A stretch of DNA of 54,119 nucleotides from a virus, in IMG/VR virus record IMGVR_UViG_3300018080_000222, positions 1 through 54,119 of that record; one strand, given 5' to 3'. Shown piece after piece: positions 2,169-49,852 of this stretch (positions are counted from its first letter, which is position 1; the number at the start of each line of letters is the position of its first letter). The notes below the pieces were generated by a model. It saw nothing but the letters and a program-made list of their open reading frames with translations, made no database searches and was not told where the DNA came from. Position numbers and translations under genes: made by a program.

Positions 2169-3839
2169 CTAACCCTCCTTCAGGAACCTGGTGGTTCTCT
2201 CTGCGGCTCCAGTTTGCGGATTCCAGTTATTGACATCACTGATGATAGTACCACCATCCCCGTACGGTACCGTATTCAACGTGGGTTGCGTCGAGTGTCG
2301 CTTCGAACGGATCGTGACATTTATAATTTCTGACGTTACCGTCCCCATATCCTGTATAATGGGACCAGCAGCACGACCAGGGATAGGTATGTTGGCATAG
2401 ACAGAAACAGCTTCCTGAGTCTGAACCGTAATTTCAGTGCCGTGTGCATCCCTGTCTGTCCATGTCCAGCTACCCCTTACGACGCCACGCTTTTTATCGA
2501 AAGATTTTACTACTGAGACCTTGTTATATGTCAAGGTCGTGTTGGCAAGGTCTTTGGCGCTAGCCAATGCAACGGTATCGGTGGACAAACCTGTTTCAGC
2601 ATTAGCCAATCTTGTTGCAGAGGTTTCTCCCTTGCCCTCTATTGTTTGTGTATAGGTAAGGGTATTTAATTGGGTGTCGAGAGCATAAGAATGTTGAGCC
2701 TCCTCTGTTACAAAATAAGTAGCATTATCAGATGTGCTCCACTGATATGTGAAGCTAACTGTGCCGTCTTGCTGATTCAACGAAAAGGTCTTTTTACCAG
2801 GATACGTAGGTAGTGTTTTGCCGCCCAATAGCGAACCAACATATGATGTAGCAGTAGTTCTCGCGGCAGATATCGATGGAACAGCAGATTTCGCATGATC
2901 CATATTAACGATATTGCCGTCACGACTACCGTCCCCAACGCCGTAAATGGTTCCCTGGTATGTAACATCATACTCACCAGTAGTCTGATTATACTCTACG
3001 GTGAACTGACGTTCTTCGTACGAATTATCCTCCGATAAAACCCATTCTTCCGTGACACCATAAGTCCCGCCATCTTTGTCTATTTTAGTAACAGTACTAT
3101 AATGGCCAACAATCTGGTCTGTCGCGCCCAATGCAGCAAACATAACTGCACTGTCAACCGAACCACTCACCTTCGTATCTACCCAGTCCTTCGCCCGTTG
3201 CCACGGCTGTTTGTTCTCATACGGGTCTCCACCACCATCATAACCTAATTGGCCACCAGCATTAACATCATGCGTTACTCTATACTGCTGATTATTCCTG
3301 CCATCGGTCTCCTCAAATGACCATGTTTCCGATGATGTAGAAAGTAAATCTGTCGAGATATCATCTTCTAGGCTAACGGTACCATTGATATAAATCCACG
3401 GAGCTTCTAGCTCTATTGTATAATCGCACCTATCTGCCCATGGCCCTTCGGCAAACTTGATAGAAATAATGCGAGGATAGCACTTCATTGGAGGCTGACC
3501 ACCAGCAGGTTGCCACTCTAGCGAACCACCATCTTCGCTAAATAACCATCTTAGAGCTTCTTGTTTCCTAAGTATGGAATCAAATGTATCCTGGTCAAAG
3601 ACTCCAGGAGACTGATCCGGAGGATATCCCCCAACCGTCCAATGCGCATCGGCAATATTAATATAGTTTCCACTTGGACTACCCCTATATGGCAACAGCG
3701 TCCCCGTCAACACGATCGAATACTTAGCTCCGATTTTAGTTCCATCGCCGCGAGAGACATAATTTTTGCTAACAGTAACCAGCGGAGCAGGAATCACTTT
3801 ACGTCCAATGCTGTCTGATTTCGTATAAAAAACTGACAT
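2169..3839 (-). CDS. Tail-tip structural protein (556 aa)
   Basis: A 556-residue, beta-strand-rich protein starting MSVFYTKSD. It contains YxIxLEAPW and many Thr/Ser-rich strand segments (for example SFTYQWSTSDN, TYTQTIEGKGE) in a repeat-like series through residues ~200-480, each followed by a verb-like TWTDRDAHGT or EEWVLSEDN pattern. The ATG directly follows the stop of the HNH gene upstream, and its own TAG stop sits just before the GTG of the next tail protein, so the genes are probably co-translated. Position between tape measure and hub suggests a distal tail or baseplate component. No enzymatic motif is visible and the family is not recognised. Confidence 0.6.
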   Translation of the reverse strand: MSVFYTKSDSIGRKVIPAPLVTVSKNYVSRGDGTKIGAKYSIVLTGTLLPYRGSPSGNYINIADAHWTVGGYPPDQSPGVFDQDTFDSILRKQEALRWLFSEDGGSLEWQPAGGQPPMKCYPRIISIKFAEGPWADRCDYTIELEAPWIYINGTVSLEDDISTDLLSTSSETWSFEETDGRNNQQYRVTHDVNAGGQLGYDGGGDPYENKQPWQRAKDWVDTKVSGSVDSAVMFAALGATDQIVGHYSTVTKIDKDGGTYGVTEEWVLSEDNSYEERQFTVEYNQTTGEYDVTYQGTIYGVGDGSRDGNIVNMDHAKSAVPSISAARTTATSYVGSLLGGKTLPTYPGKKTFSLNQQDGTVSFTYQWSTSDNATYFVTEEAQHSYALDTQLNTLTYTQTIEGKGETSATRLANAETGLSTDTVALASAKDLANTTLTYNKVSVVKSFDKKRGVVRGSWTWTDRDAHGTEITVQTQEAVSVYANIPIPGRAAGPIIQDMGTVTSEIINVTIRSKRHSTQPTLNTVPYGDGGTIISDVNNWNPQTGAAERTTRFLKEG

Positions 3840-6374: not shown

Positions 6375-9300
6375 TATGCAAGCTCCTGTGCAGTATCCGT
6401 GGCTGCGATAGAAACTTCAGAATCACTCTTCGCGGCTAAACTTTCCAAGGCTTTACGGGTAATAGTTTTGGCTATGGCGACTGCTGCCTCTTCCAACAAT
6501 GGTTTAACCTCATCGGAAACATCTGACGGAAGAGTAGACAAATCCAAGTCGATTCGTTGATCGGTAACAACCCTTAGCTCATTAGGTTCTGCGAGGGCTG
6601 TTCTTAATCCGTCAATACTTTCGGTAAGCTGGCCAATTTGCTCACTAGACTGTTCCCCTACTTCTCGTGTTCCTGGAGCAGCGGGGGATTCAGTCCTTTC
6701 CAGCGGATTCTGTTCTTGACGGTCGTGAATCGCCTGTAAGATATCGGTTATGGCCCTGTTATTGGCATTTAACTCCAAACTAAAGCCCTCAAGTGCCTCT
6801 TGGGCCTGCCGGATGGTTACAGCACCAGAGCTTATCTGAGCGGGTGTAACCCCAGGCACTCCAAGGTTGGTTCCGGATTGGGACAATCCACCTAGACTCT
6901 TAAAATCAATAACAGCCTGCCCGAAGCTGGCGATATGATGCTTCATCATTTGGGCAGCATCCATTTGTGTACGAACAGACTCGCCAAACACACTAACGGA
7001 CATATCAAAATTCTGGACAACCTCTTCTTGCGTCTTGGTGTTATTGCTTACTTCTTTTGCCAAGTCTGCTCGTATCGCATTATCCTTTTCTATTATTACA
7101 TCAAACTTATCTTGCAGTGCCAACTGTTCCTGTAGGTGCTCCTGCTGTAGATCAAACATGATCCTTTGCGATCGTAGCGGACTCATGCCCCTTTCCTCTA
7201 TAGTCTCTCTCTGCTGCTGAGCCTCAAGCTGCTGCCTCAGCTTAAGGGTTTGCAATTCATAATCAAGTGCCTGCTTGGTACCCTGGCTTAGGGCTTCCAT
7301 GGATGTCTGCAATTCTATAATCTTGCGACTCAGATTCCCTGCCCTCTCGGTAACCGCCAAGAATCCCTGAGAACCTGGCTTAAGGGTTGCCAAAGCGGAC
7401 CTCGCTTCGGAAAGCTCAAGGGTAAGCCTGCGGAAACTATCTCGAACCTGCTGACGTACTCGTTCATCACCAGCGACATCAGCCAACCTTCTTCCGCGAC
7501 CCTCGAAGAAATCTGCTGTCGGAGTAGCGATACCAGCACGACCACCTCTCGCTATCCGCTCCTGTTCCAACAGTTGTAGCTCTTCGAATGTGCCTCTCTG
7601 TTGTCTTGAGGGAGTTCTGCCCCTAGCATATATACCGGATCGCCTTAACTGCTGCTCTAGGAAAACAGCCTGCGACTCTGGCCTGACAGGTACAGCTAAT
7701 TCCAGCCTACGGACAACCGCTAACCTATTCAACTCATCCTGAAGACGATCGAATGTATTTCGCAAAAACTGTCCGATAGTCTCTACGGCAGCATTAGACG
7801 CACCGAGACCTATGTCGGCAAATTCCTGCTTGAACCTACGCTTAATTTCTTCTGGATCAATGAGCTTACCTTCAGAAGCTAGCTGGATATCCTCTGCGAT
7901 AGTTTGGAAGAAATTCTCAAAATTATCCTTGACAGAGTCTGGGACATTTCGCTGGAATGCGAAGAACTTATCTATCTCACTACCCAAATCGACGCCAGAC
8001 GGCAAATTAGACACGTTAATGATGAATTGATCGATCAAGTCTTCGATCTCGGATATCCCGCCGACGAACCGTGGTATGTCTGGAGTAAAGGCGAACAGGT
8101 CCTTAAGACCATTGGTGCGGACAAGTTGTTCTATCTGCTGGGCACCGAAATCAAAGTCAAAAGAGGGTGCCTGAATCCCACCACGGATAATTGCTATGTC
8201 CCCCTCGAACAATTTTGCGGCAGTAGTTATCATCCGGGTAGTTTTATCGATTGCCTTAGAAAACTGCAATAGTTGTCCGACCAATCTAGGAGGTATAACC
8301 TGGGTTGTAAGTTGTAGAATCTTCTTCCGTTTCTCGGCTTCGTCCCTAATTACCTTAGCACTTTCGTTTACTTTGTTGGTCCACACCTCAAGGCCACCAG
8401 CAGATTCGATGACAGCACTAGCGAATTGATTAGCATCTGTGACGCTATACCCTTCGTCGAGGCCAGCCTCAACTAGTTTTCGTCTAGCTATAAATGGGGT
8501 TTCATCTATCTGGTTATCCTGAATAATGCTCCTGGCCGTACCCTCTATAATACTATTGATAATTTTGGGACTACCTTTAAGTATCTGTCTAACGTGTTCC
8601 TTGATATCAGATTGTGTTAGCCCACTTCTAGTCAATAGTGTGCCATAATCTCCCTCTAATACATTGCTTAGTTTTCTCCCTATACTATTAAAGACCTTAG
8701 AAAGATTAAAGTTTTTTCTTGGGTCTGAGCTAATAATTAATTCATTAACGCTTGCGTTGATATTGCTGTATAGTTGATCAATCCCACCAGATAGCGATTC
8801 CGCGTCTATCGGGTCTATATCTATGGAAGAAACTGACTGTATAGCAGTTTGCACTATTTTGTCACTTAGTTCTTTAGCTGTTTTAGTTGCCTGTAGTGCG
8901 GCAAGAGGTAGGGCAATAGCTGTTGTAGACAGTAGTGTTCCACCAATACCTCCTAGCAGGCTGTTTTTCTTCGATAGATTGCCGACTAATCCACCGCCAC
9001 TGATAAATTGAGCTATGGTTTGTTTTCTAAACAGGGCAATGGCCGCAGTAACAGCAGCGGTTGATGTGATTAATGTGGAAGCAAAAGTTCTGGTACCGTC
9101 AGCAGTTGTTAGAAAAGATGCTGCTAATTCAGAAGCTGCAATCAACAACCCTGCCTGAGCAAAAGGACTGGCTACGATACCGGCCCCAATGCCACGGGCT
9201 CCACCACCAGCAGCAGCAAAAGCAGCGGGACCAGCAAGTTGGCCGATCTTTGGACCTATGAAGCTACCAATCCCACCGAGTATTGCAGTACCCGCGAAAA

Positions 9301-19683: not shown

Positions 19684-19701
19684 TGAATCTTCTCCTCTAA
19701 T

Positions 19702-19996
19702 GGCTACGGGCTGGATTCGACCAGCAGTTCCCTGTTGCTTGCGGCAACTTTCGTTCATAGGTCCTAAAACTTGAACTTGGCAGTTTTGTGGGAACACCCC
19801 GCCAAAGCCGACTATCTGTCGAGTGTCGCCCTAACAAGACACACCGCAGCCTAGTCCAGGAATAGGGGGCCTCGCACTCCCCTCGGTGGTCACTATTCCG
19901 GCGTTCACCACTAACTACCGCGACTTCGGTTTCAGCACAATTTCTTGCGAGCCCATTGCTCGCTCATGCTCTCTCTAGTGTCGCCTAGAGTTAGAT
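19702..19996 (-). ncRNA. Gene-free, highly foldable RNA segment (candidate structured RNA)
   Basis: About 295 bases lie between tRNA-Asp and the DUF4406-like gene with no convincing gene. Read on the minus strand the segment has many short helices. A 150-nt domain is closed by GGCTGCGG (19851-19844) with CCGTAGCC (19709-19702). Inside it are GTGTC/GACAC (19842-19823), GTTCCC/GGGAAC (19795/19727), GTTCA/TGAAC, GTTGC/GCAAC and a T-arm-like GCTGG-TCGAAT-CCAGC (19725-19710). Upstream are CTCTAG/CTAGAG, GCGAGC/GCTCGC and GGAATAG/CTATTCC. GGACTA (19857-19852) and TAGTC (19814-19810) bracket a hairpin as P7 brackets P8 in group I introns. The class is unresolved. Confidence 0.45.
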
Positions 19997-24168: not shown

Positions 24169-24489
24169 CTATCGTAGTGTCATACAGAATATAACCCACC
24201 ATCCGACCAAAAATAAGCAAACCGAGAGTCCGAATACTGAAACTGCTACACTCCATCGATAATCCTTGTGTCTAATAATATACACCATTAGGATGCAAGA
24301 CACCAAAGTGACAGTCAGCTTGAATGTTACCAGACCTACTGTGCCGTGGGTTTCCCAAATGTATTCTGCTACTGGGTTGGCTTCCTCGAAGTGTTCGACA
24401 TGACGATCACAATATAAAGTGGCACCTAAATCACAGATAGAAACCAACAAGACAATAGTTGGCAGGATGAGGTACCAATATCTTTTCAT
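24169..24489 (-). CDS. Membrane protein, about three transmembrane segments (106 aa)
   Basis: Starts MKRYWYLILPTIVLLVSICD; hydrophobic segments at ~5-20, ~54-72 and ~80-102. The motif CDLGATLYCDRHVEHFEEANPVAEYI resembles the D..T......EANP pattern I recall for DUF5658-type membrane proteins. It could be a holin or small permease-like protein, but there is no lysin nearby. The ATG follows the terminator at 24502-24530 by a few bases, so transcription from the upstream promoter would have to read through. Confidence 0.65.
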   Translation of the reverse strand: MKRYWYLILPTIVLLVSICDLGATLYCDRHVEHFEEANPVAEYIWETHGTVGLVTFKLTVTLVSCILMVYIIRHKDYRWSVAVSVFGLSVCLFLVGWWVIFCMTLR

Positions 24490-24501
24490 CGATTATCCAA
24501 T

Positions 24502-24530
24502 AAAAAGAGGGGACCGTCTTTCAGGTCCCC
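24502..24530 (-). terminator. Rho-independent terminator
   Basis: On the minus strand GGGGACC pairs with GGTCCCC around an 8-base loop, then TCTTTTTATT. It sits between the TGGTGTATAA motif at 24607 and the membrane protein gene. Confidence 0.85.
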
Positions 24531-24605
24531 GTTCTAAGGTAGCGAAACGACGCGCAAGGATGGCGTAACTAACTTTCGACGCCTGCTATTTGCCTCGTTC
24601 CATAT
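24509..24605 (-). ncRNA. Short intergenic transcript candidate, complement matches conserved 23S rRNA
   Basis: Bounded by a TGGTGTATAAT motif (24617-24607) and a terminator (24530-24502), a minus transcript of about 80-100 nt has no ORF. On the plus strand 24534-24547 reads CTAAGGTAGCGAAA, identical to the conserved 23S rRNA stretch after helix 69 (about E. coli 1925-1938). Then 24560-24568 reads ATGGCGTAA, also found a little further on in 23S. The intervening helix 71 hairpin is absent. The minus transcript would be antisense to 23S rRNA. Function unproven. Confidence 0.45.
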
Positions 24606-24606
24606 A

Positions 24607-24617
24607 ATTATACACCA
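24607..24617 (-). promoter_or_regulatory. TGGTGTATAA-class promoter-like motif
   Basis: Reads TGGTGTATAAT on the minus strand. Its TAA is also the stop codon of the 66-residue gene (GGT GTA TAA). It precedes the short 23S-complementary transcript candidate and the membrane protein gene. Confidence 0.55.
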
Positions 24618-25133: not shown

Positions 25134-25757
25134 CTAATCATCTCCCCCAAATGCACGTCGTAAGTTATCATCCCGTTGCTTCTTAAGTCTTGCATCTACG
25201 TCGTGAGAATTAGGATGGCGTCCGTAGTCTTCTAGGTTCCTCAAAACCCAATCTTGTTCGAGAGTATGGACTGATCCGCAACAACACATTCCCTGGATAA
25301 CATCGCATGGGTCATTGGACAAATAGAATCTTGGGGGCCAGTGGGACGGATACGAGATAGTTTCAGTACCCGTTGCTAGTTCCTGGCAATCTACACATAT
25401 CTTAGAATTGGGTGCTTGCTTATTCTTCTGACAACTGATACAGATTCCAGCCTTCAGTGGCATTGACTCCTCCTGTTTGCTAAAACATTCAAGTTTTTTG
25501 AACGATTCTGTCGGAACATTATGATCTTCTAGGTATTGCAAAGCTTCTTGGAATGATAATGATAACCAGGTTCCCATATTGATATTAAAAGTTATGCGCA
25601 ATACTTCCTGTTGCGGGATATTTGAAAATATTCTAAGATGTCCATCCCTCTTAAGGTGATATACCGTATCGGTAGAATAAAGAACACAAAAGACAATATC
25701 TCCCCAGAGTGTTTCATCTTTACCACGGTAAATCAATGGGCAAGTTGGCTTATTCAC
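25134..25757 (-). CDS. Hypothetical protein with duplicated YLEDHN module and zinc ribbon (207 aa)
   Basis: Starts at GTG 25757 (GTG AAT AAG), overlapping the stop of a mini-ORF. Residues ~1-90 carry the PLIYR ... YLEDHNVPTESFKKLEC module shared with the next gene. Residues ~100-130 form a zinc ribbon (CISC, CVDC). The C-terminal ~75 residues (WPPRFYLSNDP, MCCCGSVHTLEQDWVL, DARLKKQRDDNLRRAF) are a separate cysteine-containing and helical part. Preceded by a GAACAA-N16-TATAAC promoter. Function unknown. Confidence 0.6.
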   Translation of the reverse strand: MNKPTCPLIYRGKDETLWGDIVFCVLYSTDTVYHLKRDGHLRIFSNIPQQEVLRITFNINMGTWLSLSFQEALQYLEDHNVPTESFKKLECFSKQEESMPLKAGICISCQKNKQAPNSKICVDCQELATGTETISYPSHWPPRFYLSNDPCDVIQGMCCCGSVHTLEQDWVLRNLEDYGRHPNSHDVDARLKKQRDDNLRRAFGGDD

Positions 25758-26823: not shown

Positions 26824-27939
26824 TTATGTAGCTAGGCCAGCAGGGTCTTGCGTGTGAGTAACGCGTAAGCTGTTGAAATTCGAATAGTTGTAGCTTGTGG
26901 CGACATTGCCACCACCTGCATCCCCACCGCCGTAGCTCACAGACGATAGTTTGTTCTTCGCCCCGAGGTTAATTCTTGTACCCTCTTCAACCCAGATGAA
27001 AATCTTATGTTCGGTAAGGTTACTGCCACCGACTGGGTCTGCCATGGCGTCAATCAGATCACCCTCAGATGAAGTAGAGTCGATTGCACAGGTGACTTCG
27101 GTCGGGAACGAAACAAACCGGTGATACGGTCCTCGGCGTCCTAGTTCGAATAGCTCTTCACGACCAAGGTCCGTAGAAATCGTTACGGTCTGGAGGTGAG
27201 CAGCATATGCATCCCCGTCTACCAGGTTCCAGCCGTTGGCATCGATTCCATCGATCTCCGTGGGCCAAATACTACCACTAACACCAGTAATGACCCCAGC
27301 ATCACTCATGGAGCAACCTGAACCCATCAATACGTTTTCTCTACGGGCTACGCCACCAGAAGCAGCGAGAGAGAGTGGTTCATCTGAGCCATCGAATACA
27401 GATGGAGCGAAGTGGGTTAATCCAGAAGCAGTCCATTCCTTGTTATTGCCCACTAGGGTAATATCTTCGGTAGAACTACCCTCAACATTCAGTGTATACG
27501 TCAGAGTCGAGACGTACATACCGGACATACCCACAGACTGTAGCGGCGTTCCGGAAGCATTATCATTGGTATCTGGATAGATATTCAGAGCAGCAAAGCA
27601 CCGCTCATTGGACCTTCCAACCAGGGTCGCAGAAGTAGCACCAGGAGTTGCTAGGTGATACAGCAACGGATAGCCATCCAACACCTTCTGTGCTGTTAGC
27701 TCAATATCGGGGATACCCTCGACATTCTCATACAGTTCTAGTTGACCAAGCTCAAATACCTGCTCAAGATTGAATGTGGTATTTAAACCAACACTTTGAA
27801 CACCATGCGCAGTTCTGAATCCAGACGGGTGCGTTCCGGAACCAGCATGGAGTGCACCGGCGTCAAGCGGACATAATTGATCATGCTCCGCGAACCCCAA
27901 TGCCTGCCCGGCGTAGAAAATTCTTGAATTAACACTCAT
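26824..27939 (-). CDS. Major tail (tube) protein candidate (371 aa)
   Basis: A 371-residue beta-rich protein of low charge (MSVNSRIFYAGQALGFAEHD). It has repeated features: FNLEQVFELGQLELYENVEGIPDIE and STDLGREELFELGRRGPYHRF appear as two halves of the same pattern (~70-100 and ~255-290), suggesting an internal duplication typical of tube proteins. It has its own promoter-like motif and a strong terminator, as expected for an abundant protein. It follows the connector/neck genes and precedes (after the accessory island) the tape measure set. I assign tail tube from this; a spike or decoration role is less likely. Confidence 0.65.
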   Translation of the reverse strand: MSVNSRIFYAGQALGFAEHDQLCPLDAGALHAGSGTHPSGFRTAHGVQSVGLNTTFNLEQVFELGQLELYENVEGIPDIELTAQKVLDGYPLLYHLATPGATSATLVGRSNERCFAALNIYPDTNDNASGTPLQSVGMSGMYVSTLTYTLNVEGSSTEDITLVGNNKEWTASGLTHFAPSVFDGSDEPLSLAASGGVARRENVLMGSGCSMSDAGVITGVSGSIWPTEIDGIDANGWNLVDGDAYAAHLQTVTISTDLGREELFELGRRGPYHRFVSFPTEVTCAIDSTSSEGDLIDAMADPVGGSNLTEHKIFIWVEEGTRINLGAKNKLSSVSYGGGDAGGGNVATSYNYSNFNSLRVTHTQDPAGLAT

Positions 27940-49841: not shown

Positions 49842-49852
49842 ATTATACACCA
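49842..49852 (-). promoter_or_regulatory. TGGTGTATAA-class promoter-like motif
   Basis: Reads TGGTGTATAAT on the minus strand, ~53 bases before the portal gene start, immediately after the terminase stop codon. Confidence 0.55.

Follow-up and report, generated by a model that had tools for sequence, protein, structure and literature searches.

A previously undescribed family of RNAs, each of about 100 bases, was found in large uncultured phages and, judged from its sequence, may represent a viral antisense RNA acting on the host ribosome. The member analyzed here is encoded in a stretch of 54,119 nt (hereafter the window), a 54-kb piece of a large uncultured tailed phage, where it sits between the minus-strand ORFs 24608–24865/24756–25133 and 24169–24489 and forms a minus-strand unit with its own promoter and intrinsic terminator (Table 1). 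This RNA unit is conserved, has a defined structure and is complementary to three sites in domain IV of 23S rRNA. The interpretation that it is a stand-alone phage sRNA acting in trans as antisense on domain IV of the host 23S rRNA has, in our estimation, about an even chance of being right.

Genomic setting and transcription unit

Nearly all long genes of the window are encoded on the minus strand, and six tRNA genes were predicted by the program ARAGORN. DNA searches with the window against phage and plasmid records yielded no real match, a close relative was not found among the deposited phages, and scans with the flanking proteins (window 24169–24489 and 25134–25757) returned nothing. Based on its AlphaFold model (pLDDT 75.8), which matches T5-like major tail proteins, the product of the gene at 26824–27939 was identified as the putative tail-tube protein. 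An RNA ligase (PF09414; 20974–21951, minus strand) and a phosphoribosyltransferase-domain protein (PF00156; 22608–23192, minus strand) are encoded near the sRNA. The DUF5658 gene, starting approximately 20 nt past the terminator, is probably a neighbour and not part of the sRNA mechanism.

The window also contains a non-coding stretch of about 300 nt directly 3' of tRNA-Asp (19697–19995, minus strand), which is 76% identical to positions 7955–8266 of the related locus L002 and folds strongly (−111.9 kcal/mol, z −2.9). It had no match in Rfam even at E ≤ 1 and probably represents a large and structured phage RNA not described before.

Table 1. Features of the sRNA locus in the window.
Feature	Position	Strand	Remarks
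Promoter motif GTGTATAAT of the sRNA	24607–24615	−	Copy number, strand bias, conservation in relatives
Small RNA, ~99 nt	24502–24600	−	Sequence; covariance model R1; ends predicted
P1 5' strand GAACGA	24595–24600	−	Pairs with UCGUUUC 24550–24544
P1 3' strand UCGUUUC	24544–24550	−	Arm-swap pairing test
Segment 1 GCAGGCGUCG (family GCAGGCGUCA)	24577–24586	−	Complement of 23S UGACGCCUGC, helix 67 5' strand and flanks
Segment 2 GUUACGCCAU	24560–24569	−	Complement of 23S AUGGCGUAAC, helix 67 3' strand and flanks
Segment 3 (seed) UUCGCUACCUUAG	24534–24546	−	Complement of 23S CUAAGGUAGCGAA, linker after helix 69
Intrinsic terminator hairpin GGGGACC-loop-GGTCCCC	24509–24530	−	U-run 24506–24502; stem covaries in relatives
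DUF5658 membrane protein gene, 106 aa	24169–24489	−	Pfam PF18902, 36 bits (cut-off 25.2); downstream of the sRNA

The promoter motif occurs in four copies in the window, all four on the minus strand, compared to 0.49 expected. It lies directly upstream of the RNA also in relatives, where a further copy precedes the tail-tube gene by about 70 nt. The shorter core TGTATAA, usually preceded by G or GG, was found on the minus strand of the window at positions 49849, 46539, 42016, 28802, 28000, 24614, 18946, 13762, and 13036, several of these copies being situated just ahead of gene starts, and likely represents a phage-specific promoter class. Since the promoter motif is common to the tail-tube gene, the sRNA is probably expressed late.

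The 5' end of the RNA was set approximately 7 nt past the −10 motif and the 3' end was placed in the U-run, both ends thus being predicted positions. On the minus strand, the hairpin 24530–24509 is followed by TCTTTTTATT, which together constitute a terminator-like site. An earlier note on this DNA, made from the letters alone, had interpreted the hairpin as the counterpart of helix 69; it is actually the terminator of the minus-strand RNA. The overall observation of that note was nevertheless real, as the 14-mer shared with 23S rRNA, a second motif, the minus-strand promoter motif and the terminator were all recovered. A degenerate tRNA was ruled out, since ARAGORN found no tRNA at the sRNA locus, and a known riboswitch or other known RNA family was discarded because Rfam gave no match. 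The RNA family is new to Rfam.

Occurrence of the RNA in related phages

Related loci were reached via the RNA ligase, which gave L002, and via the tail-tube protein, which gave 80 loci. In L002, the homologous stretch shares 83% DNA identity with the window element, whereas the neighbouring protein is only about 57% identical. The element was found in L002, L006, L007, L009, L010, L012, L015, L016, L017, and L018. The covariance model R1 matched the window (24606–24499) and, in addition, no fewer than 13 genomes of related uncultured phages; 14 out of 20 related records had matches at E ≤ 1, the 11 clear ones being at E < 1e-7. R1 added the divergent members L013/L014 (49 bits) and L019 (34 bits), and L023 (21.5 bits) and L022 (17.6 bits), the former without the seed, probably carry the element as well. 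In the divergent members, the sequence between the segments was lost or changed and the segments themselves were largely retained. The R1 matches in L020 and L035 are located immediately behind the tail-tube gene, whose terminator they resemble. In other phages of the wider clade, the R1 search indicated that the element is absent.

The short terminated minus-strand RNA proposed in the earlier note is thus established as a conserved family by the covariance model and the relatives. The earlier note had also suggested looking in related phages for this element ahead of homologous membrane genes, and it was indeed found there. Exact-pattern scans of viral contigs with its motifs found nothing, at least partly because of an extra U in the seed region of the window (TCGTTTCG).

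The only matches of the clade in bacterial and archaeal genome records were one ‘Heimdallarchaeota’ genome and one SAR202 MAG, neither of which matched the RNA model significantly, and the host is not settled by them. The former record (L110; Candidatus Heimdallarchaeota ‘bin6 chromosome’, CP070695.1, 40971–56083) encodes a tail-tube gene 86% identical to that of the window and is probably bacterial-type phage sequence placed in an archaeal MAG by misassembly or misbinning. Furthermore, L002 features a phage-borne tmRNA gene (3464–3815, plus strand; Rfam RF00023, 132.9 bits), preceded by a small lipoprotein-like ORF, and a similar tmRNA-like 5' end begins at about position 10560 of L017; no tmRNA gene was found in the window.

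Structure and covariation

The promoter, P1, P2, the linker and the terminator all recur in the relatives. Compensatory changes in P1 are present in L009 (GAGUGA/UCAUUC) and L019 (GAAAUC/GAUUUC), and in both cases the own arms outpair the swapped arms. In L010, L016, and L018, P1 includes G-U pairs (GGACGA/UCGUUC) that are possible on the minus strand only. The stem pairs of the terminator likewise covary across the relatives. P2 is formed by the arms GGCGU (5', within segment 1) and ACGCC (3', within segment 2), and its covariation support is weak because it varies little. One sRNA copy, in L006 (10991–11070), is devoid of the P2 hairpin but retains the seed and the terminator, the loss resembling a deletion between two GCGTC repeats.

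Segment 3 is mostly single-stranded and located between P1 and the terminator; the mean probability of the seed being unpaired was 0.74 in the window RNA and ranged between 0.10 and 0.76 across the members. Folded alone, the window RNA achieved unremarkable z-scores (−1.4 to −1.6), and single-sequence folding would not have revealed the element. The middle of the RNA, CAUCCUUGCGCGUC, is invariant in most close relatives and has no partner in 23S rRNA.

These results also bear on other readings offered in the earlier note. An rRNA mimic transcribed from the plus strand disagrees with the location of the promoter motif and terminator of the family on the minus strand and with the P1 G-U pairs restricted to that strand, and a relic of a homing site does not fit a unit that is conserved as RNA. 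Comparison with the Rfam rRNA models, likewise proposed there, gave no LSU match (RF02541), neither at the gathering threshold nor at E ≤ 10; given this result and the placement of promoter and terminator on the antisense strand, a 23S homologue or relic was ruled out.

Complementarity to domain IV of 23S rRNA

The sequence CTAAGGTAGCGAAA is present at 24534–24547 of the plus strand with zero mismatches to the 14-mer of E. coli 23S rRNA (13-mer at index 1919), and ATGGCGTAAC follows at 24560–24569, 12 bases past the 14-mer, both as previously described. The chance of 1 in 2500 quoted for the 14-mer holds if the motif was fixed beforehand, but not if any part of 23S rRNA is admitted, in which case about 1.2 shared 14-mers are expected (2 × 54119 × ~2900/4^14). 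With approximately one chance exact match expected, the 14-mer alone is weak evidence. The element is raised above chance by its conservation in relatives and by a third complementary segment (24577–24586), which the earlier note had missed.

To rank possible sites, the best contiguous helix was averaged over 15 members against E. coli 23S rRNA, which may not be that of the host; contiguous helices were used because whole-sequence duplex energies with loops were too noisy for this purpose. Positions are given as gene index, with E. coli K-12 numbering presumably about 6 higher. The top three sites in the 2898 nt of E. coli 23S rRNA all fall within about 150 nt of domain IV. Segment 1 accounted for the best site (−22.25 kcal/mol, index 1821) and forms 10 of 10 pairs in most members. 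The second-best site belongs to segment 3 (−21.3 to −21.7 kcal/mol, index 1927), with 12–13 of 13 pairs in 14 out of 15 members, and the third-best to segment 2 (−17.1 kcal/mol, index 1966–1968, AUGGCGUAA), with 8–10 of 10 pairs in members possessing an intact P2 arm. The three most strongly conserved segments of the RNA are thus complementary to domain IV, which supports the antisense-to-23S reading already considered in the earlier note.

When 23S rRNA was randomised by a Markov procedure, −22.25 kcal/mol was attained by the best site in 5.5% of 400 sequences and −21.7 kcal/mol by the second-best in 0.25%. An equally good three-site cluster appeared in 3 out of 1600 such sequences (p about 0.002), the p-values for the 23S cluster being moderate and the target having been prompted by the finding itself. 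For 16S rRNA, no comparable cluster was detected, with a value of −45.7, equal to the random average, versus −60.7 for 23S rRNA. For L019, the helix formed with the helix 67 strand of site 1 extends over 17 bp (p about 0.0003).

According to the Rfam 23S structure, sites 1 and 2 hold the two strands of helix 67 (CGCC with GGCG) and site 3 is largely unpaired. P2 of the sRNA consists of the complements of the two helix 67 strands. Segments 1 and 2 do not count as independent evidence, being linked in part by their mutual pairing, which parallels that of helix 67.

Six distinct changes were observed in the seed interior, five of which remain compatible with pairing as G-U wobbles (p about 0.03). 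Of ten 23S genes (Chloroflexota), nine have an unaltered site 3, and host-to-host differences occur at sites 1 and 2. The sequence GCAGGUGU, carried by L017 and L023, is perfectly complementary to the ACACCUGC variant of L117–L119, a match that may serve as a lead for host matching but is not proof. The antisense model predicts that the hosts of L017 and L023 have UGACACCUGC, as in L117–L119, and that those of L009 (GCAGACGUCA/GUUACGUCAU) carry UGACGUCUGC/AUGACGUAAC.

Alternative roles of the RNA

The main rival is a cis-acting leader, i.e., an attenuator or regulator-bound element of the DUF5658 gene, whose complementarity to 23S rRNA would be accidental. DUF5658 directly follows the terminator in 11 out of 15 members, including the divergent L013 and L019, with other genes in the remaining four, and no other promoter was noticed between the RNA and the DUF5658 gene. 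However, no upstream segment pairs with the 5' arm of the terminator better than shuffled sequences in the 15 members, so that an antiterminator is not evident. In L007, L017, and L022, the unit is independent of the downstream gene, the full RNA preceding genes other than DUF5658 that are equipped with a TATAAT-like promoter of their own, and G015, the phage of L021, possesses DUF5658 without the RNA. For these three reasons a stand-alone sRNA is favoured, and since a leader would also leave the 23S match unexplained, we consider it unlikely, if the most serious competitor.

The RNA could instead act in trans by repressing phage or host mRNAs, covering ribosome-binding sites via UCCUU and ACCUU. 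The anti-Shine-Dalgarno-like cores AUCCUU and UACCUU are indeed highly conserved, and phage antisense sRNAs of the mRNA-repressing kind are known, for example, c4 RNA (cited in PMC12197685). On the other hand, AUCCUU is altered in L013, L019, and L022, and the conservation of a 13-nt seed among divergent phages is more easily understood for an invariable target than for mRNAs, which vary. Outside the sRNA locus, the phage genomes contain only scattered single one-mismatch matches to the full seed complement, and by family-averaged score no target in the window was as strong as 23S rRNA, making mRNA repression quite improbable.

It is a little harder still to favour an RNA binding a protein of the phage or its host (a regulator or a component of packaging or the virion) and matching 23S rRNA by chance. 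The promoter motif common with the tail-tube gene, the compact conserved fold and the conserved middle without a 23S partner would all be in line with such a role, but the clustering of three segments in one 23S domain and the wobble-preserving seed changes would be left unexplained. A splint or guide that holds the sides of helix 70/71 so that 23S rRNA cut near U1939 by a MazF-type toxin is resealed by the phage ligase is scarcely credible: the sites paired by segments 2 and 3 flank helix 71 and the UUCCU cleavage site of MazF-mt6 and MazF-mt3 (PMC5408214), and the phage does encode an RNA ligase, but this role is purely inferred and phages that have tRNA genes often encode such a ligase.

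Proposed mode of action

Under the antisense reading, a more specific mechanism can be tentatively outlined, in which invasion of helix 67 and of the linker that follows helix 69 by the viral RNA would serve to control the assembly of ribosomes or the joining of their subunits in infected cells; we hold this version to be somewhat short of an even prospect. The minus-strand sRNA gene would be transcribed from the promoter type common to tail genes, with transcription ended by the intrinsic terminator, and in the ~99-nt RNA the conserved seed CGCUACCUUAG stays mostly unpaired beside the helices P1 and P2 and the terminator hairpin. The seed would then pair with the near-universal CUAAGGUAGCGAA after helix 69, whereupon P2 would open and its arms and flanks would pair with the two helix 67 strands. 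As a result, the domain IV interface of the free or assembling 50S subunit would be clamped or unfolded, and 50S maturation or 30S joining would be hindered. We infer that the pairing takes place in cells, that expression is late and that the effect is inhibitory.

A block of 50S maturation or subunit joining is favoured because it fits the reported behaviour of this region: helix/loop 70 is a substrate of MazF-mt6 in the 50S subunit and is not cut in 70S particles, mutation of helix/loop 70 abolishes subunit association (PMC5408214), and a PNA against helix 69 inhibits the growth of E. coli (PMC7038079). The order of segments 1, 2 and 3 in the sRNA is unlike that of a simple antisense transcript, and simultaneous pairing at all three sites would therefore need strand exchange. 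The probable late expression fits poorly with an early host shut-off.

Comparison with known systems

Proteins are the means by which phages are known to take over host ribosomes. If the antisense reading is true, a base-pairing sRNA against rRNA would represent a new route of host takeover and would mark a site where natural antisense can block 50S assembly or subunit joining. As the target of the seed is nearly universal, expressing the RNA in a laboratory strain would test this proposal directly.

The I-CeuI-type homing site in 23S rRNA includes CTAAGGTAGCGA, which is also contained in the element; only part of that site is present here, however, and what is conserved is a structured, putatively transcribed RNA. 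Box C/D guide sRNAs and snoRNAs likewise pair with 23S rRNA through segments of about 10–13 nt, whereas the phage RNA features a bacterial-type terminator and has no guide evidently beside a box D; Rfam snoRNA matches to it were all sub-threshold (18.7 bits, cut-off 52; 9.4 bits, cut-off 50).

Among phage RNAs, c4 RNA (P1/P7) and the anti-sRNAs of EHEC prophages are likewise short and structured with an exposed antisense seed, but they target mRNAs or sRNAs, and the sRNA described here possesses its own promoter and terminator. A review of phage sRNAs (PMC12197685) makes no mention of rRNA, and no rRNA-targeting phage sRNA was found in the literature searched, which covered few subscription journals. 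MazF-mt6 and MazF-mt3 act on the same domain IV interface, with access of MazF-mt6 in 50S and not in 70S (PMC5408214), but these enzymes are cleaving proteins, whereas the phage element is an RNA predicted to pair. The growth-inhibiting PNA (PMC7038079) is antisense to a neighbouring part of domain IV; it is artificial and aimed at helix 69 itself, whereas the phage sRNA is predicted to act on the linker after this helix.
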